From Flavobacteriaceae bacterium (GTDB lineage Bacteria; Bacteroidota; Bacteroidia; Flavobacteriales; Flavobacteriaceae): a stretch of 11,676 bases of DNA. The position numbers and the translations under genes were made by a program. Positions 3,577 through 11,499 of the stretch are shown here, piece after piece. The notes beneath the pieces were generated by a model. That model did not search any database. It was not told the DNA's origin and saw nothing but the letters and a program-made list of their open reading frames with translations. Location: the NCBI GenBank assembly GCA_003511845.1, contig DOIV01000099.1, positions 1 through 11,676 of the forward strand. Reading direction: 5' to 3'. Position 1 is the stretch's first letter. Every line of letters begins with the position of its first letter.

Positions 3577-6500
3577 ATGAAAAATATTTTTCTAATAACC
3601 TTGCTTTTATTAATCTATAATGTTGATGCTCAGCAGGAATATCAGAGCTTACTCTGGAAAATATCAGGTAATAACTTAACAAAAGATTCCTATTTGTATG
3701 GTACCATGCATGTGAGTAGTAAAGTTGCTTTCAGGTTAGATGATGTGTTTTATGAATCTTTGAATAAAAGTGAAATTATAGCTCTAGAATCGGATCCTTC
3801 AAAGTGGATGGAAAACAGTTACGACTTGTTAAATACAAGCATGTCATATTATTCTGGTGGCTCATATTATAATAAAGATTTTTATTCCAGTTTATTCAAA
3901 CTTCCTTTTCCTGAGAAATTAACTATTAGAACTGCCATTCGATTGGACAACTCTCTAGTAAATGGTTATTTGTATAGAAAACAAAGAGGGTCAGATAATT
4001 TTGAAGAAGAAACCTATTTAGATATGTTTATTTACCAAGCTGGTAAAAAACACAATAAACGGGTTATTGGACTTGAAGATTTCAACGAGTCTAGGTCATT
4101 AGTTACTAAGGCGAGTTATAATATGATGAAAAAGCCGCAAGATAAGTGGTTAAGGAAATTATATGAAGAAAAACCAATGTATGCTTTTATTGAAGATGCT
4201 TATAGAAGCCGAAATTTAGACTTGTTAGATTCTATTGGTGTGGCAAGTAATACAGAACATTTTAGGCAATACATGCTTTATAAAAGGAATGAGAATATGG
4301 TAAATGTGTTAGACTCGGTAATGCAAAAACAGTCTGTTTTTTCAGGAGTTGGTGCAGCACATTTACCAGGAAAAAAAGGTGTTATTGAACTATTGAGAAA
4401 CAAAGGATATATTGTTACTCCATTAACTTCTAAAAGAACACCTTATGGTAAAGCTCAGAAAAAAGAACTTGAAATAATTTTTACTGAGCCTTATTTAAAA
4501 TTAGAGGCTACTCCTGATGATTTTCTATCTATAAAAAGCTTTGAAAAGTTAAGAGAATTGAATTTATTCAATCAAAAATATTATATAGCCACAGACATGG
4601 CTAATGGTGGTTATTTGGCAATTACGAGAATTAACACTTTTGATTATTTAAATGCAAAAAAGAAGATAGAATTAAAAGATATAGATAACCTTTTATATGA
4701 AGATGTTCCAGGTAAAATTATTGAGAAAAAAGTATTAACAAATCCTTATCCTGGTATTGGTATAATAAACAAAACTAAAAAAGGAGATTTTCAAAAATAC
4801 CATATTTACAAAACACCACTTGAAATTGTTATCATAAAATTAGGTGGTAAAAAAGAATACGCTATAAATCATGCTGATGAAATTTTTAATTCTATAGTCT
4901 TTAAAACCAAAGCTACCACTTTGGTTGATTTTACCCCAAATTTCGGCAAGTATTCTGTTAAATTACCAGAAAATTATATTGCTGAAGGTTTTGGTGTGGC
5001 TGGTAAAAACACCATTCAAGCTTATGATGATAATGGATTTTATTTTTTAGAAGAAGTGCCAATTCATGAAGTTACATTTATTGAAGAAGATAAGTTTGAG
5101 GCAGTCTATATTCACAAAGCGTTTTATGATGATCTCAAATTAGAAAAAGAGAAAGGAAAGTTGATGAAGTCTAACTACTCAACATATCAGTCATTAGCTA
5201 TACTTGATACTTTAACAGATAAAAAGGTGATGTTAAGGAGCATTGTAAAAGATGAAATTTATTATTTAATGGGGTATGTCGGTAAGGACACTGTTGCTGC
5301 CACTTCATATTTTGATTCCTTCAAGTTTAAAAATATTCTTTACAAAAAAGAATTCAAACAAGTTAAAGATACTGCCTTACATTTCTCTGTTTTGACGAAT
5401 GTTAAACAGCCTTTTCCAACAAATTTATACCGTAGCGGTGTCGCTAAAAAGCCCTATGAGCATTTGACGAAACACACACGATATAATTCTAAAACCAATG
5501 AAAGTATATTTGTTACTAGAAATAAATACCATGACTTTAAAATGGTTGAAAATATTGATAGTTTGTGGAGTCAAATAGATAAAAAATATGACTATCAGTT
5601 TGCATTATCTCATAAAGAGAAGTCTAAAAAAGATGACGTATATACCTATTCTTTTTTCTTAAAAGACAGTTTAAGTTCAAAACAGATAAGAGTTAAGAAT
5701 GTGCTAAAAAAAGGGGTGTTGTTTGAGTTGAGAACTTTAGAAGACAGTATTAGTACCACCTCAAAATTTGTTGAGAATTTTTACAACACATTTACACCTT
5801 TAGATACTTTATTAGGTAGAGATGTTTTTGAGAACAAAGTAACCGATTATTTTAAAGCTTTAAAGAGTAAAGATAGTATTGCAGATAATGCAGAGTATTT
5901 GATAAAATATGAGGAAGCAGATGTTGATACAATGATTGCTTTATTAAATAATTTTGAGTTTCCTAAGGATAAGAAAAGTGCAAAAGAAGCACTCATATAT
6001 GAGTTTTCAGATTTAAAAAGTGAAAAAACAGCGTCTTTTCTTAAAAGGATGTATCAAAAATCATATAGTGATCCAAAAACACAAATTAACATTTTAGAGA
6101 CATTGATTGCTAAAAGAGATATTGAATCGTATAAATTAATTTTGTCTTTACTTGAAGAAGATTTTCCTATCGGTTCTTATAGTATGAATAATATTTTTCT
6201 CTTGTCTAAAGAAAAGGACTCCCTTCAGTTAAAAAGGAAGTTATTTCCTGAATTATTGAAATATTCATCTATTCAAGAATATAAACAGCCAGTTTACGGT
6301 CTTTTAGCCCAGTTAAAAGACAGCAGTATAATTAAGCCTAGAGTTTATAAAAAATTTAAAGATCAAATTTTTAATGACGCCAAAATTGAATTGAAAAGAA
6401 GTTTAATGAAAGACCATCAGTCTTATGGAAATAATACGCTATTGAGTAATTATGTGAATCTATTATATCCGTTTAGAGAAGATAAAAATATTGCTCGTTT

Positions 6501-7053
6501 TTATATAAAACTATTAGAGAGTAATAATATTGAAGCTCTAAGTGATTATTATGTATTGTTGAAAACAAAAGGAGAAACAATACCTAAAAAGTTAGAAAAT
6601 AAGACGTTGAATGATATTGAGAATTTAAGCGTATTAATTCATAAACTAAAAAAGAAAAACCTATTACCACAGGTTTTTAAAACAGAAAAATTTCAATTAA
6701 AATATGCTCAATCAGAATTGTTTTCATCTGTATATGGTGATTATGATGAGGATAAAATTTCTTTTCTAAAGAAAGAAGAATTAATCCTGAATAATAAATC
6801 TTTAGATGTTTACTTTTTTAAAGTAAAAGATAATGACGGTTATTCAAATTCTAAAGCAGAATGGTTGTATTATATAGCTTTTAAGAAAGATAAAAAGATA
6901 ATAAGTGTAGAACCTTATTTTACATTTGACACTAAAAATAGTTCCTTGAAAGGAACTAAAAGCGAAGATGAATTGATAAAAGAAGCCTTAGATAAAATAA
7001 GGTATAAAGATAGAAAACGACTTCAAGGTGCTTCTAATAATTATAATTACTAA
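3577..7053 (+). CDS. Large exported TraB/GumN-family protein with repeat modules and alpha-solenoid
   Basis: A 1158-aa secreted protein of unknown substrate. Residues 1-18 are a type I signal peptide (likely cut after VDA). Residues 20-285 are a TraB/GumN domain, related to Tiki metalloproteases and ChaN haem-binding proteins: it shows the start LLWKISG, the two GxxH motifs (GTMH 42-45 and GAAH 259-262), Glu71 in ALESD, and GKKHNKRVIGLED. Most TraB/GumN proteins stop there. Here about 870 residues follow. Three segments ending near 443, 585 and 742 share a pattern of strand-rich sequence closing with a phrase like FDSFKFK, and look like diverged tandem modules. From about 750 to 1000 the sequence is helical and HEAT-like. 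A separate alpha/beta C-terminal domain covers about 1040-1158. Divergent from hemH and convergent with trmH; whether it has a role in haem handling is open. Confidence 0.85.
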   Translation: MKNIFLITLLLLIYNVDAQQEYQSLLWKISGNNLTKDSYLYGTMHVSSKVAFRLDDVFYESLNKSEIIALESDPSKWMENSYDLLNTSMSYYSGGSYYNKDFYSSLFKLPFPEKLTIRTAIRLDNSLVNGYLYRKQRGSDNFEEETYLDMFIYQAGKKHNKRVIGLEDFNESRSLVTKASYNMMKKPQDKWLRKLYEEKPMYAFIEDAYRSRNLDLLDSIGVASNTEHFRQYMLYKRNENMVNVLDSVMQKQSVFSGVGAAHLPGKKGVIELLRNKGYIVTPLTSKRTPYGKAQKKELEIIFTEPYLKLEATPDDFLSIKSFEKLRELNLFNQKYYIATDMANGGYLAITRINTFDYLNAKKKIELKDIDNLLYEDVPGKIIEKKVLTNPYPGIGIINKTKKGDFQKYHIYKTPLEIVIIKLGGKKEYAINHADEIFNSIVFKTKATTLVDFTPNFGKYSVKLPENYIAEGFGVAGKNTIQAYDDNGFYFLEEVPIHEVTFIEEDKFEAVYIHKAFYDDLKLEKEKGKLMKSNYSTYQSLAILDTLTDKKVMLRSIVKDEIYYLMGYVGKDTVAATSYFDSFKFKNILYKKEFKQVKDTALHFSVLTNVKQPFPTNLYRSGVAKKPYEHLTKHTRYNSKTNESIFVTRNKYHDFKMVENIDSLWSQIDKKYDYQFALSHKEKSKKDDVYTYSFFLKDSLSSKQIRVKNVLKKGVLFELRTLEDSISTTSKFVENFYNTFTPLDTLLGRDVFENKVTDYFKALKSKDSIADNAEYLIKYEEADVDTMIALLNNFEFPKDKKSAKEALIYEFSDLKSEKTASFLKRMYQKSYSDPKTQINILETLIAKRDIESYKLILSLLEEDFPIGSYSMNNIFLLSKEKDSLQLKRKLFPELLKYSSIQEYKQPVYGLLAQLKDSSIIKPRVYKKFKDQIFNDAKIELKRSLMKDHQSYGNNTLLSNYVNLLYPFREDKNIARFYIKLLESNNIEALSDYYVLLKTKGETIPKKLENKTLNDIENLSVLIHKLKKKNLLPQVFKTEKFQLKYAQSELFSSVYGDYDEDKISFLKKEELILNNKSLDVYFFKVKDNDGYSNSKAEWLYYIAFKKDKKIISVEPYFTFDTKNSSLKGTKSEDELIKEALDKIRYKDRKRLQGASNNYNY

Positions 7054-7572: not shown

Positions 7573-8469
7573 TTAATTGTGTAATGCCGTAATGTATTTT
7601 TTTGGTGTAGTGCCGTATTTTTTCTTAAAAGCAGCTATAAAATGACTAGAAGTACTGTAACCTACTTTTAGACCAACTTCTGTAACGTTATATTCTTTAG
7701 TCTCTAACAATTTTCTAGAGACTTCCATTTTGTAATCAAATAAAAAACTATATACCGAATCGCCATAAATTTGCTTGAAACCTTCTTTTAGCTTTTTTAA
7801 ATTAAGACCAACTTCATTGGCCAATTCTTGTAAGCTTGGCGGTTCTGTTATGTTTGAAATAATAATGTCTTTTGCCTTTCTTATTTTTAATACATTTTGT
7901 TCGTCCACTAAAAACGGACATTGCTCAATGTCAGTATCTTCACTTTTATTAAAATAAAGGCTTAATAGTTCGTAAAATTTTGCTTTTAAGTACAGTTTTT
8001 CAACGGATGAATGTAGGTTGTAATTCATCATCTGATTTAAAATCACAATTTTTGATGGGGAAATAGGGTTGGTGTCATAATATTTTTTATCCTTATTTTC
8101 ATCGTTTAGAAAATGAATATAATTAGATTCATCAGAAAATAAAGAATGGAATTTTTTTATAGAAATCACTAAAGATATCACCCAAGATGTTTCTTGTAAT
8201 TCTAGATGTAATGGCAAATCAATCTGTGGATTGTACAGTAATAATGAGTTTTCTTTATGAACATCAAAAGCATAACTACCATTGTTGAAATAAAATTTTG
8301 AAGCACCTTTTAGACAATAGTGAAATTGAATATAACTACTGTCAATTTGATGCTTAATTGTTTGAATTTTAGTACTGTTATTTTGAAATTTTAAAATATA
8401 AATACCCGTTTCAATTTCTTTTTTTGTAACCGAACTTTCAGCGTTATTTTTCAGGTTGTTCTCTAGCAT
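7573..8469 (-). CDS. AraC-family regulator, PchR-like, divergent from hemA
   Basis: DNA-binding regulator of 298 aa. Residues about 20-130 form a variable, strand-rich sensor region (IQFHYCLKGASKFYFNNGSY) like the N-terminal half of PchR-type regulators, which respond to iron-siderophore ligands. The C-terminal AraC domain has both helix-turn-helix units: PSLQELANEVGLNLKKLKEGFKQIYG (211-236) and NVTEVGLKVGYSTSSHFIAAFKKKYGTTPKKY (261-292). The KLKEGFKQIYG phrase is typical of the PchR branch. The gene starts divergently from hemA across 189 bp holding four ATAAnCCTTT repeats, two of them inside its own promoter. I infer that it represses itself and controls hemA; the ligand (iron, haem or a siderophore) is not known. 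The next gene, trmH, begins at the base after its stop codon. Confidence 0.93.
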   Translation of the reverse strand: MLENNLKNNAESSVTKKEIETGIYILKFQNNSTKIQTIKHQIDSSYIQFHYCLKGASKFYFNNGSYAFDVHKENSLLLYNPQIDLPLHLELQETSWVISLVISIKKFHSLFSDESNYIHFLNDENKDKKYYDTNPISPSKIVILNQMMNYNLHSSVEKLYLKAKFYELLSLYFNKSEDTDIEQCPFLVDEQNVLKIRKAKDIIISNITEPPSLQELANEVGLNLKKLKEGFKQIYGDSVYSFLFDYKMEVSRKLLETKEYNVTEVGLKVGYSTSSHFIAAFKKKYGTTPKKYITALHN

Positions 8470-8531
8470 GATTAAAAATTTATTATTTAGAATTATTATA
8501 AATTAATAATGATAAATAATGTGATTGTTAG

Positions 8532-8562
8532 CAAATATAAGCCTTTATAAGCCTTTGTGCAA
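8532..8562 (-). promoter_or_regulatory. Promoter of the AraC-type regulator gene
   Basis: On the minus strand there is a TTG (8562-8560), 20 bp, then TATATTTG (8539-8532), a full match to the Bacteroidota form TTG-N17-23-TAnnTTTG. Transcription would begin near 8525, giving a leader of about 55 bases. Both copies of the tandem ATAAGCCTTT repeat lie between or on these elements, so a protein bound there should block RNA polymerase. Confidence 0.68.
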
Positions 8563-8605
8563 TAAAAAACAGGTAATAATCCTTTAACGATATAAATAAC
8601 CCTTT
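8537..8605 (+). promoter_or_regulatory. Four ATAAnCCTTT direct repeats, candidate AraC-regulator operator
   Basis: Four 10-mers share the pattern ATAAnCCTTT: 8537-8546 and 8547-8556 (both ATAAGCCTTT, in tandem), 8576-8585 (ATAATCCTTT) and 8596-8605 (ATAACCCTTT). All point the same way, and their starts are 10, 29 and 20 bp apart, close to one, three and two helical turns, so they face one side of the helix. AraC-type proteins typically bind direct repeats read by two helix-turn-helix units about one turn apart. Copies 1 and 2 overlap the regulator's promoter; copy 4 ends 5 bp before the hemA -33 element. The repeats are seen directly; their role as the binding site is inference. Confidence 0.7.
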
Positions 8606-8610
8606 TAGCG

Positions 8611-8642
8611 TTGTTTTTATACAATCAGTAATGATATTTTTG
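8611..8642 (+). promoter_or_regulatory. Promoter of the hemA operon
   Basis: TTG at 8611-8613, a 21-bp spacer and TATTTTTG at 8635-8642 match the Bacteroidota promoter consensus TTG-N17-23-TAnnTTTG. Transcription would start near 8648, about 10 bases before the hemA ATG. The nearest upstream operator-like repeat is centred near -48, a position usual for activators. Confidence 0.7.
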
Positions 8643-8658
8643 CTTAGATTCTATTTTT

Positions 8659-9906
8659 ATGAGTAAAAAACAAGTTAACATACATCATTCTTTTTATTGT
8701 ATAGGCTTAAGTTACGAAAAAGCCAATGCCGAAATTAGAGGTAGATTTAGTTTAGATCAAGGCTCTAAAGAGAAGTTATTGAAAGAAGCTAAGGCAAATG
8801 TTATTGATGGAGCTTTAGCTATTTCGACTTGTAATAGAACCGAAATTTACGGTTTTGCAGAGCATCCATTTCAATTGATAAAGTTATTGTGTAAATATTC
8901 AAAAGGTACCGTTGAAGAATTTGAAGAATTTGCTGATATTTATAAGAATAACGATGCGGTAAACCATATGTTTCGTGTTGGTACAGGCTTAGAAAGTCAA
9001 ATTTTAGGTGATTTTGAAATTATTGGTCAATTAAAGAAAAGTGCTGCTCTATCAGAAAAGTATCATTTATTAAACACCTATTTAGGTAGGTTGGTTGATA
9101 ATGTAATTAGAGCCAGTAAATTGGTAAAAACAGAAACAGAAATTAGTTCAGGAGCTACATCAGTCTCTTTTGCCTCTGTACAATACATGTTAAATAATGT
9201 CAAAAATATTTCTGATAAGAATATTTTGTTATTTGGTACAGGTAAAATAGGTAGAAATACTTGTGATAATTTAGTGAAGCATACACAGAATAAGCAAATT
9301 ACCCTTATAAATAGAACAAAAGATAAAGCAGAGAAGATTGCTGGTAAGTTTGATCTTACCGTAGCAGATTATAATAATTTACAAAATGAAATCAGTAAAA
9401 CTAATGTGTTAATTGTTGCTACAGGAGCACAATTACCAACCATTACAAAAGAAATTATTGCTGCAAAACAAGAATTGTTAATTTTAGACCTGTCTATTCC
9501 TATAAATGTTTCAGTCGATGTTATGGAATTAGAAAATGTCAACTTGGTTCATTTAGATGATCTTTCAAAAATTACTGATAATACACTTAAAAAAAGGCAA
9601 GAGCAAATTCCACTAGTAGAAGCTATTATTGAACGTGAAATGAGAAAATTCATTGTTTGGTTAGAAACACGTAAATTTGCTCCTACAATAAAAGCTTTAA
9701 AACAAAGGTTAAAAGAAATACAATCAGAAGAAATTGATTATCAGCGTAAAAACAGAACTGATTTTAATGAAGAGCAAGCCTTGTTGCTGTCTGAAAGAAT
9801 AGTTCAGAAAATCACCAAACAATTTGCCAATCATTTAAAAGATAATTCAACTTCTTCAGAAGAAAGTATGGCGTTTATTTCTAAAGTTTTTCAGTTAGAA
9901 AATTAA
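8659..9906 (+). CDS. hemA: Glutamyl-tRNA reductase HemA
   Basis: Reduces glutamyl-tRNA(Glu) with NADPH to glutamate-1-semialdehyde, the first committed and usually rate-limiting step of the C5 route to haem. The 415-aa protein has the usual three parts: a catalytic domain with nucleophile Cys58 in STCNRTEIYGF, His103 in NHMFRVGTGLES and the QILGDFEIIGQLK block; a Rossmann domain with GTGKIGRN (193-200) and INRTKDKA; and a C-terminal helical dimerisation domain from about 310 (EREMRKFIVWLETRKFAPTIKAL). Length and motifs are complete. The ATG at 8659 lies about 10 bases after the predicted transcription start, with only T-rich sequence ahead and no Shine-Dalgarno. The next gene, hemCD, begins 3 bp after its stop. 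Expression is probably set by the divergent AraC-type regulator. Confidence 0.97.
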   Translation: MSKKQVNIHHSFYCIGLSYEKANAEIRGRFSLDQGSKEKLLKEAKANVIDGALAISTCNRTEIYGFAEHPFQLIKLLCKYSKGTVEEFEEFADIYKNNDAVNHMFRVGTGLESQILGDFEIIGQLKKSAALSEKYHLLNTYLGRLVDNVIRASKLVKTETEISSGATSVSFASVQYMLNNVKNISDKNILLFGTGKIGRNTCDNLVKHTQNKQITLINRTKDKAEKIAGKFDLTVADYNNLQNEISKTNVLIVATGAQLPTITKEIIAAKQELLILDLSIPINVSVDVMELENVNLVHLDDLSKITDNTLKKRQEQIPLVEAIIEREMRKFIVWLETRKFAPTIKALKQRLKEIQSEEIDYQRKNRTDFNEEQALLLSERIVQKITKQFANHLKDNSTSSEESMAFISKVFQLEN

Positions 9907-9909
9907 AGA

Positions 9910-11499
9910 ATGGATAAAACGATTAGAATTGGTACTCGCGATAGTGAGTTGGCAATGTGGCAAGCTAAAACCGTACAAGAACAACTTGAGTATTTAGGTT
10001 ATAAAACCGAGTTAGTACCCATAAAAGCTACAGGAGACTTAGTATTGAATAAACCCATTTATGAACTAGGTATTACAGGTGTCTTTACTAGAAATTTAGA
10101 TATTTCTATGTTGAATAACGATATTGATATAGCCGTACACTCCTTAAAAGACGTGCCAACAGCATTACCAGAAGGTATTGTTCAAGCAGCAGTTTTAAAA
10201 AGAGGGCCTTCAGAAGATGTCTTGGTTTTTAAAGGGAATGAAGAGTTTCTTGCCCAAAAAGACGCTATAATTGCAACAGGTAGTTTGCGTAGAAAAGCCC
10301 AATGGTTACATCGTTATCCGTCACATAAAATAGAAGGTTTACGAGGTAATGTAAATACGAGACTCCAAAAATTAAAAGATAATGAACAGTTGAATGGAGC
10401 TATTTTCGCTGCTGCAGGATTGAAGCGTATTGGTGTTAAACCAGAAAACATGGTTAACTTAAGTTGGATGGTTTCTGCACCAGGACAAGGAGCAATTATG
10501 ATTGCAGCTCTTGAAGAGGATGAATATTGTAAAGAGGCTTGTGCAAAATTAAATCATGAAGAAACTGAAATTTGTACTAATGTAGAACGTAAATTTTTAA
10601 GACTGTTAGAAGGAGGCTGTTCTTCTCCTATAGGTGCATTGGCTTATATCAATGAAAAAGAAGATGAAATTACTTTTAAAGGTATTATTTTAAGTGAAGA
10701 TGGTTCTCGAAAAAAAGAAGTCAATAAAACAGTAAAGACTAGAAAACATATCTATTTAGCACAAGATACAGCTGATATTATTATAGATAGAGGAGGTAAA
10801 AAATTAATATCTAAGTACGGAGCTTTTGAAAAGAAATATAAAATATGCTCTACTAAGAAGTTTACAGATAGTCAATCTAAATTAGTCCATGAAGATATAG
10901 CTGTTGAAGATAGCGATTTTATAAAAATTAGATCGAGTAGAATTCCTTTACCTGTATTGAAAAATGAAATAGAAAACGTAATCATTACCAGTAAAAATGC
11001 AATTGAATCATTAGAAACCAATTTTTCATTAGCTGAGTTGCAATTTAAAAACATCTATTGCGTAGGTAGAAGAACCAAAGCTTTAATTGAAAAGAAAATA
11101 GGTAACGTAAAATTTGTAGCTAGAAACGCAAAATTATTGGCTAAACATTTATCAGAAGAAATTAAAGGACAAGAAGTTACTTATTTTACAAGTAGTTTGC
11201 GTTTAGATGATTTGCCAACTATTTTAGAGCAAAATGAAGTTGTAGTAAATGAAGTTGAAGCGTATAAAACAATGTTTAGTCCAAAAGTAATCGATGATAA
11301 TACTGATGGCGTATTATTTTATAGTCCATCGACAGTAGAAAGTTATATACTAGAAAACAAAGCAATAGGTATTGCTTTTTGTATTGGTGAAACTACAGCA
11401 GCTAAGGCTAAAAAACATTTTACAGAAGTAAAAGTAGCCAAAGTGCCTACCGTAGAAAGTGTTATTGAATTGGCAAATTTATACTTTGTGAAAAAATAA
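9910..11499 (+). CDS. hemCD: Fused hydroxymethylbilane synthase / uroporphyrinogen-III synthase (HemC-HemD)
   Basis: One 529-aa protein carrying two consecutive haem-pathway steps. Residues 1-300 are porphobilinogen deaminase, which joins four porphobilinogens to hydroxymethylbilane. Visible are TRDSELAMWQA, catalytic Asp81 in HSLKDVPT, Arg127/Arg128 in TGSLRRKAQW, Arg145 and Arg151 in LRGNVNTRL, and Cys237 in LLEGGCSSPIGAL, which carries the dipyrromethane cofactor. From about 305 the sequence matches uroporphyrinogen-III synthase, a weakly conserved family, with STKKFTDSQ, VIITSKNAIESL, CVGRRTKALIEKK, TYFTSSLRLDDLP, VVVNEVEAYKT, DGVLFYSPSTVESY and AFCIGETTAAKAKK marking its two lobes. The fusion would let unstable hydroxymethylbilane pass between sites, preventing closure to isomer I. 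The frame is uninterrupted across the junction, so this is not a sequencing artefact that can be seen. The HemC half is certain, the HemD half very likely. Confidence 0.95.
   Translation: MDKTIRIGTRDSELAMWQAKTVQEQLEYLGYKTELVPIKATGDLVLNKPIYELGITGVFTRNLDISMLNNDIDIAVHSLKDVPTALPEGIVQAAVLKRGPSEDVLVFKGNEEFLAQKDAIIATGSLRRKAQWLHRYPSHKIEGLRGNVNTRLQKLKDNEQLNGAIFAAAGLKRIGVKPENMVNLSWMVSAPGQGAIMIAALEEDEYCKEACAKLNHEETEICTNVERKFLRLLEGGCSSPIGALAYINEKEDEITFKGIILSEDGSRKKEVNKTVKTRKHIYLAQDTADIIIDRGGKKLISKYGAFEKKYKICSTKKFTDSQSKLVHEDIAVEDSDFIKIRSSRIPLPVLKNEIENVIITSKNAIESLETNFSLAELQFKNIYCVGRRTKALIEKKIGNVKFVARNAKLLAKHLSEEIKGQEVTYFTSSLRLDDLPTILEQNEVVVNEVEAYKTMFSPKVIDDNTDGVLFYSPSTVESYILENKAIGIAFCIGETTAAKAKKHFTEVKVAKVPTVESVIELANLYFVKK

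Follow-up and report, generated by a model that had tools for sequence, protein, structure and literature searches.

The locus studied here raises two questions: which sequence in the gap between a divergent AraC-type regulator gene and hemA serves as the operator of the regulator, and what does the regulator control through it? The window, that is, the whole stretch of 11,676 nucleotides that was analysed, is an entire contig of a Flavobacteriaceae genome (G000) that is 68% complete. On its forward strand, hemA (positions 8659 to 9906) encodes glutamyl-tRNA reductase (TIGR01035, 278 bits, above the cut-off) and is followed after 3 bp by a hemC-hemD fusion gene (9910 to 11499; Porphobil_deam, 9.5e-66; HEM4, 3.3e-25), which is presumably cotranscribed with it. 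Behind the AraC-type regulator gene lies a SpoU methylase gene, and hemH and a hemJ-like gene (UPF0093; TIGR00701 below the cut-off) are found farther along the contig. A protein of 1158 amino acids is encoded at 3577 to 7053, between hemH and the methylase gene.

A sequence-only reading of the window had proposed that a local AraC-type switch acts on hemA through direct repeats which abut the -33 element of its promoter, the repeats being four copies of the 10-mer ATAAnCCTTT. The promoter elements on which that reading relied are found where it had placed them: on the reverse strand, the promoter predicted from sequence for the regulator gene (8532 to 8562) has a -7 element TATATTTG at 8539 to 8532 and a -33 TTG at 8562 to 8560, while on the forward strand, hemA has a -7 element TATTTTTG at 8635 to 8642 and a -33 TTG at 8611 to 8613. 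According to our analysis, the switch stands in outline but its motif does not, the conserved repeat being CGATA/AGCGTT, and the results neither favour nor contradict self-repression of the regulator. To that reading, our analysis adds a Fur-like box, an FNR-like box in part of the family, and a change of target in species without hemA, all described below.

The regulator (7573 to 8469, reverse strand) is a protein of 298 amino acids with an N-terminal beta domain, a linker carrying Cys184-Pro185, and a C-terminal AraC helix-turn-helix. The C-terminal double helix-turn-helix that marks the AraC/XylS family is recognized in it by Pfam (HTH_18, 1.3e-17, and HTH_AraC, 7.2e-10, both above the cut-off) and by Foldseek, whose best matches are whole, two-domain AraC proteins, at a low overall TM-score of 0.30 to 0.34. 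In the AlphaFold2 model (mean pLDDT, 85; pTM, 0.55), the linker between the N-terminal beta domain and the AraC domain is helical. The earlier label "PchR-like" finds no specific support, as other AraC-family models, all of them below the cut-off and none of them named PchR, account for the NCBIfam matches shown (25 of 27), and Pfam recognizes the helix-turn-helix domains only. Cys184-Pro185 is present in all 201 rows of close orthologues, which are not all independent, and in five of five distant orthologues, and in none of 14 paralogues; among the 17 sequences of alignment A1, it is lost in G272 only. His108 is invariant in a 45-row alignment of the regulator, and residues 177 to 183, just N-terminal of Cys-Pro, are modelled at low confidence. 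Irr binds haem through a Cys-Pro motif, according to the passages of PMC11442138 cited here. In the present regulator, direct haem sensing through the orthologue-specific Cys-Pro motif appears plausible, the motif being short and no proof of haem binding on its own.

Two sets of loci were compared with the window. The first comprises the 30 best relatives of the regulator, drawn from 60 genomes, and gives 29 gaps, that of the window included, once L030, which has no hemA, is set aside. The second comprises 80 named loci, the best 80 of at least 532 confirmed ones, chosen by protein similarity, and includes Maribacter, Zobellia, Arenibacter, Aquimarina, Kordia, and others; the named relatives of the regulator belong mostly to the Flavobacteriaceae. 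A divergent hemA adjoins the regulator gene in 80/80 named loci and in 29 of the 30 first-set relatives, and five distant regulators (39 to 46% identity, two of them from other families) are likewise divergent from hemA. The gap between the two genes has a median length of 195 bp in the 80 named loci (range, 170 to 218 bp). In 50 of these 80, hemH lies on the strand of the regulator within the 3-kb flank, where the window has the SpoU methylase gene, so that the regulator gene may often be cotranscribed with that of ferrochelatase under Fur control.

The gaps share a 31-bp element on the forward strand, here called box B (8588 to 8618 in the window), which is a direct repeat of CGATA/AGCGTT with a 21-bp period. 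Its upstream half-site, AACGATATAA (8586 to 8595), has a CG core, which in 95% of 109 sites is spaced 21 bp from the CG of the downstream half-site; the latter, AGCGTTGTTTTT (8607 to 8618), overlaps the -33 TTG of hemA. The consensus over the 109 sites is AAAAAAC-N3-AAACGATACTAAAAGTTCTTTTAGCGTTATTTTTT. All 109 gaps were used in the alignment and all are distinct, with two pairs of gaps having a common 100-mer; one of these pairs, L015 and L146, is the same contig, present in both sets. Scored over 19 pattern positions, box B of the window is complete (19/19), 27 of the 29 gaps of the first set reach at least 18 and the other two 16, and 78 of the 80 named loci reach at least 17 and the other two 15, against a maximum of 15/19 in 2180 mononucleotide-shuffled gaps.

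Box B has the arrangement of an AraC-type direct-repeat operator, namely, half-sites of like orientation at a distance of about two helical turns: over the 109 sites, identity to the sequence upstream peaks at an offset of 21 bp (0.56, versus 0.15 to 0.39 elsewhere). Its CG core is self-complementary, and an inverted repeat was also considered; the direct reading is favoured by the 21-bp peak and, by eye, in G235, G101, G316, and G038, the box of the last consisting of two AGCGTTATTTTT units with a period of 19. The distance from AGCGTT to TAnnTTTG, the latter represented in the window by TATTTTTG, is 28 bp in 109/109 hemA promoters, a fixed spacing which in part restates the promoter's own -33/-7 spacing. 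At -33, 85 of these promoters have the triplet TTA and 24 have TTG.

Ten genomes were scanned for box B at up to two mismatches, and each of them contained exactly one (10/10), with one match in total in the reversed control; on this one-per-genome count we rejected box B as the site of a general regulator. A looser pattern matches 255 of 299 family genomes and gives chance matches at two mismatches, so that only zero-mismatch rows were tallied, and rows with one or two mismatches, such as G099:C4:14467 (one mismatch), fall outside the tally. Among the matches listed, 52 of 53 zero-mismatch rows fall in the gap of the regulator by coordinates, the remaining one (G165) being without a gap placement. 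The box row of G290 lies beside the regulator and hemA.

A second conserved element, box A, stands before the regulator gene and resembles a Fur box. In the window, it reads ATTTAGAATTATTATAAAT (8485 to 8503) and agrees with 11 of the 12 arm bases of ATTTAGAATTATTCTAAAT, the consensus of Riemerella anatipestifer, with a single changed base in the right arm. All 12 arm bases are matched in 69 of the 80 named loci and in 22 of the 29 first-set gaps, and in none of 1600 shuffled gaps, where the maximum is 11/12. With start codons taken from the alignment, the box A consensus TTTAGAnnnnnTCTAAA lies a median of 17 bp upstream of the regulator start codon. For the Fur box of R. anatipestifer, the passages cited here from PMC5609570 report ATTTAGAATTATTCTAAAT, with electrophoretic mobility shift assays of four promoters, that of hmuR among them, whereas a portion of PMC7976709 gives the classical GATAATGATAATCATTATC for the same Riemerella strain, YM; the literature is therefore not uniform. 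An Irr/ICE-type element was also considered for box A and was rejected, since the Riemerella Fur box matches it.

Across ten genomes, the strict Fur palindrome is not enriched (29 one-strand places versus 39 in the reversed control), and relaxed box A is enriched, with 55 strand-hits at 52 places versus 7 in the control. The contexts of 30 of the 52 places, judged by eye from N-terminal sequences, include hmuR, feoAB (in one genome), several TonB receptors, and an nqrA-like and a sufS-like gene; six are inside other coding sequence. The Fur-like boxes near nqrA-like genes are at L108, L120, and L134 (three genomes, by eye). At one locus, L010, the gap measures 368 bp and carries between box A and box B an insertion of about 160 bp with inverted ends TAGTGTCTGGTCGG, which looks like a MITE and leaves both boxes in place.

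A third element, box C (ATGAYNNNNRTCAT), which we take to be a CRP/FNR-like palindrome, is found in 29 of the 80 named gaps and 10 of the 29 first-set gaps and not in the gap of the window. Exact copies occur at 13 places in six genomes, versus 3 in the control, and five of them are at the regulator-hemA gap; of the 8 of 13 contexts inspected by eye, another adjoins cbb3-oxidase-like genes. In Flavobacterium psychrophilum, haem synthesis and the cbb3 oxidase go up together at low oxygen, as stated in the part of PMC9723704 cited here. Taken with this, box C is suggestive of an oxygen input in part of the family.

Box B follows the regulator. Among 299 family genomes, some of them incomplete, the regulator (E ≤ 1e-30) was matched in 284 and hemA (E ≤ 1e-20) in 273; both were matched in 271, the regulator only in 13, hemA only in 2, and neither in 13. 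The hemA promoters of five regulator-less genomes all score 10 to 12 of 19 for box B, within the shuffled range (5/5). Two of these genomes are from the family (G062 and G074) and three from the order (G053, G040, and G048), the latter being weak controls because they come from other families of the order. Box B was also not seen at the hmuR promoters of G315, G205, and G254, which have neither regulator nor hemA and score 12 of 19. Six genomes, G259, G262, G272, G315, G316, and G336, were assigned as hemA-less by elimination.

In hemA-less genomes, the box is found before genes for haem uptake. We opened 14 regulator-bearing genomes of this kind, namely, the 13 regulator-only family genomes and G008, which is 99% complete and has no hemA match at E ≤ 1e-20. 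In 8 of the 14, the divergent neighbour of the regulator gene is a TonB receptor gene followed by a gene encoding an HmuY domain (by Pfam in 8/8), and in seven of these eight (G008, G185, G087, G101, G316, G259, and G145), a box B of 17 to 19 of 19 precedes the receptor; in the eighth, G262, which adjoins a receptor too, the box is a degenerate one of 14 of 19. In the gaps of the seven, box A scores 8 to 10 of 12, which is the shuffled level. In G024, the contig ends within the regulator gene, and in G235, the neighbour of the regulator is hemC-hemD. Four of the 14 genomes (G224, G252, G166, and G272) have neither a haem receptor gene nor hemC-hemD as this neighbour, and at E ≤ 1e-60 they yielded no relative of the G185 receptor.

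Box B has separate contexts in G235 and G031. In G235, a box of 17 of 19 lies on contig C40 before a TonB receptor and HmuY operon, with the regulator on C15. In G031, which is 84% complete and in which neither hemA nor the regulator was found at the family cut-offs, a box of 18 of 19 precedes a different TonB receptor and HmuY pair. The nine box-bearing receptor promoters keep the promoter geometry, with the 28-bp spacing in 9/9 and 5 or 6 of the 6 TAnnTTTG bases.

The proteins of the receptor/HmuY loci were examined by HMM. Pfam recognizes an HmuY-domain lipoprotein beside the receptor in 10/10 partner genes, G262 included, and TonB receptor domains in 6 of the 10 receptors (G008, G262, G185, G145, G235, and G031); the receptor of G316 is identified by NCBIfam only and those of G087, G101, and G259 by eye. 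Among NCBIfam models, TonB-hemin ranks first for the receptors of G008 and G185, below the cut-off. For G316, TonB-B12 ranks first and TonB-hemin second, and for G262, a ligand-gated channel model is best and TonB-hemin fourth, in both cases below the cut-off. A DUF6607 gene (by Pfam in both) is found at the receptor loci L076 (G008) and L235 (G031), as is an ankyrin-like gene (by eye in G031), and the DUF6607 gene of G031 has a Fur-like box of its own.

At the hmuR orthologues of six hemA-bearing genomes, box B was not seen (11 to 13 of 19) and a Fur-like box is present; haem uptake is thus not generally in the regulon of the regulator. In the regulator tree, the seven receptor cases linked in cis, together with G024 at its contig edge, form one clade (99/94), and 13 of the 14 hemA-less regulators lie on one side of one branch (98/91, with long branches), G235 being placed inside the hemA-linked group. 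The single clade and branch suggest that the swap of target in cis may be one event, and transfer is possible as part of the change.

Two other arrangements were observed in hemA-less genomes. A repeat resembling box B (17 of 19; CGATATTTATAATTCTTTTATCGATATTTTT in G166) persists at L069 (G166) and L070 (G272), where the regulators show 37% identity and no divergent gene follows; it is possibly a relic or an autoregulatory site. L063 (G252) has, close to the regulator, a tandem pair of AATTCTTTTAGCGTT units at a distance of 23 bp, followed by a lipoprotein-like gene that has no Pfam match.

On these grounds, we deem it likely that an AraC-type activator under Fur control binds a single box B and drives the supply of haem, that is, hemA or, where hemA is missing, haem uptake. 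The regulator gene (7573 to 8469) would be transcribed away from hemA under the Fur-box-like element, through which Fur would repress it, so that the level of the regulator should rise when iron is short. The regulator would then bind its one operator per genome, box B, at direct-repeat half-sites two helical turns apart, and would recruit RNA polymerase at hemA in the way that AraC does at I1-I2; class II activation is the most likely mode since the downstream half-site overlaps the -33 element of hemA. The gene driven would be hemA in prototrophs and haem uptake in hemA-less species. Because the same box precedes a haem-uptake operon in the hemA-less lineages, the regulator probably responds to haem or to a shortage of it. 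What the comparisons establish is a conserved operator with constant promoter geometry, its association with the regulator, and its position ahead of uptake genes where hemA is missing; binding, activation, the action of Fur at this locus, and the ligand are inferred from them.

In class II activation by AraC at I1-I2 and by XylS, the downstream half-site lies over the -35 element. The present locus resembles these systems in its AraC-type helix-turn-helix, in its two direct-repeat half-sites with a 21-bp period, and in their overlap with the -33/-35 element. It differs from them in its Bacteroidota -33/-7 promoter, in having a single site in each of the ten genomes that were scanned, in the apparent control of the regulator by a Fur box, and in its target, the supply of haem.

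The weak point of the proposed mechanism is the sign of regulation, for if Fur represses the activator of hemA, there would be more hemA at low iron. A cell that avoids free porphyrin would not usually raise hemA when iron is low. The sign would be reconciled if low iron were read as haem shortage or if haem then switched the regulator off. The opposite sign defines the first of three alternatives, which we regard as unlikely: the regulator on box B would be a repressor, released by Fur at low iron, and would shut hemA so that no porphyrin piles up. The Fur box before the regulator gene fits such a scheme, a repressor, too, would act from the position of box B over the -33 element, and Irr of Bradyrhizobium represses hemB under iron limitation, according to the passages cited from PMC11442138. 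Against it, 85 of the 109 promoters have TTA as their -33 triplet, which suggests a promoter needing help. A 21-bp direct repeat abutting -33 is, moreover, the arrangement of an AraC-type activator, and the shutting of haem uptake at low iron would be self-defeating for hemA-less species. Irr itself compares with the present regulator in tying iron or haem status to early haem synthesis and in having a Cys-Pro motif; it differs in being a Fur-family protein that acts on hemB, the present protein being AraC-type and its haem binding putative (PMC11442138, passages cited).

In the second alternative, box B is the site of a different protein, such as a general regulator of haem or redox state, and the AraC-type gene is no more than a conserved neighbour. 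The box-bearing receptor promoters of G235 and G031 agree with this, as they are not beside the regulator gene and no regulator was found in G031, yet a different contig of G235 carries the regulator and G031 is just 84% complete. The single site in 10/10 genomes argues against a general regulator, the box falls to the shuffled level in 5/5 regulator-less hemA promoters, and direct repeats suit AraC proteins; we hold this alternative to be quite improbable.

The third alternative returns to the ATAAnCCTTT copies. All four are confirmed to the base on the forward strand, at offsets of 0, 10, 39, and 59: copies 1 (8537 to 8546, overlapping the -7 element of the regulator) and 2 (8547 to 8556) form a head-to-tail 10-bp tandem repeat, copy 3 (8576 to 8585) stands at the position of the conserved AAAAAAC block of the relatives, and copy 4 (8596 to 8605) separates the two half-sites of box B. 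Copies 1 to 3 are not conserved. The helical phasing ascribed to the copies applies within pairs (10 bp and 20 bp) and fails between pairs (29 bp, about 2.8 turns). Four copies in the window compare with 0.34 expected, and 0/200 dinucleotide shuffles reach four. The 10-mer is nevertheless not kept in orthologous gaps: at least one exact copy occurs in 8 of the 29 gaps, the window included, all eight labelled as its own or the same genus, at least two occur in the window only (0/28 relatives), and the gaps of the 80 named loci contain no exact copy (0/80). Genome-wide, it is near background, with 80 exact matches in G000 versus 53 in the reversed control and no further cluster of four close copies in the match list of that genome. 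We therefore rejected ATAAnCCTTT as the conserved operator; the four-copy array is lineage-specific in the gaps compared, and copy 4 alone falls inside the operator, as the spacer of the 21-bp-period CGATA/AGCGTT repeat. That the four copies are half-sites of the regulator, two repressing its own gene and two activating hemA, is very improbable given these counts and the lack of a CG core in copies 1 and 2, even though the copies are real, are clustered beyond chance in the window, and include two (3 and 4) that each stand immediately 5' of a CG half-site.

For the activator reading, the closest described systems each share a part of the arrangement. The Fur box of R. anatipestifer equals the box A consensus, and its hmuR is a Fur target whose orthologues here have the same kind of box; the difference is that here the box also stands before a regulator gene adjoining hemA, a gene which the excerpted text of PMC5609570 does not mention. 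The box-bearing uptake loci resemble HmuR-HmuY uptake in Porphyromonas and Riemerella in pairing a TonB receptor with an HmuY-domain lipoprotein, and differ from it in having an AraC-type box in hemA-less species, the six hemA-bearing species having a Fur-like box. By word search of the text available for each, "AraC" is not mentioned in the haem reviews PMC11442138 and PMC12670364, nor is "Bacteroid" in the former or "Bacteroidetes," "Bacteroidota," or "Flavobacter" in the latter. An AraC-type regulator of hemA in Bacteroidota was not found in the titles and abstract openings of the literature searched, which is weak evidence of novelty, and haem regulation in Bacteroidota appears to be little described in these sources.

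The regulator is matched in 284 of the 299 family genomes. A broader and more tentative proposal, which we consider possible though on balance doubtful, is that it is a family-wide AraC-type haem sensor that would perceive haem through Cys-Pro and His108, would integrate iron (through the Fur box) and partly oxygen (through the FNR-like box) at its own gene, and would act at one operator per genome, moved between hemA and uptake genes as the cell goes from making to importing haem. The change of target in the hemA-less genomes amounts to a natural experiment, in which a one-site transcription factor follows its pathway from synthesis to uptake.
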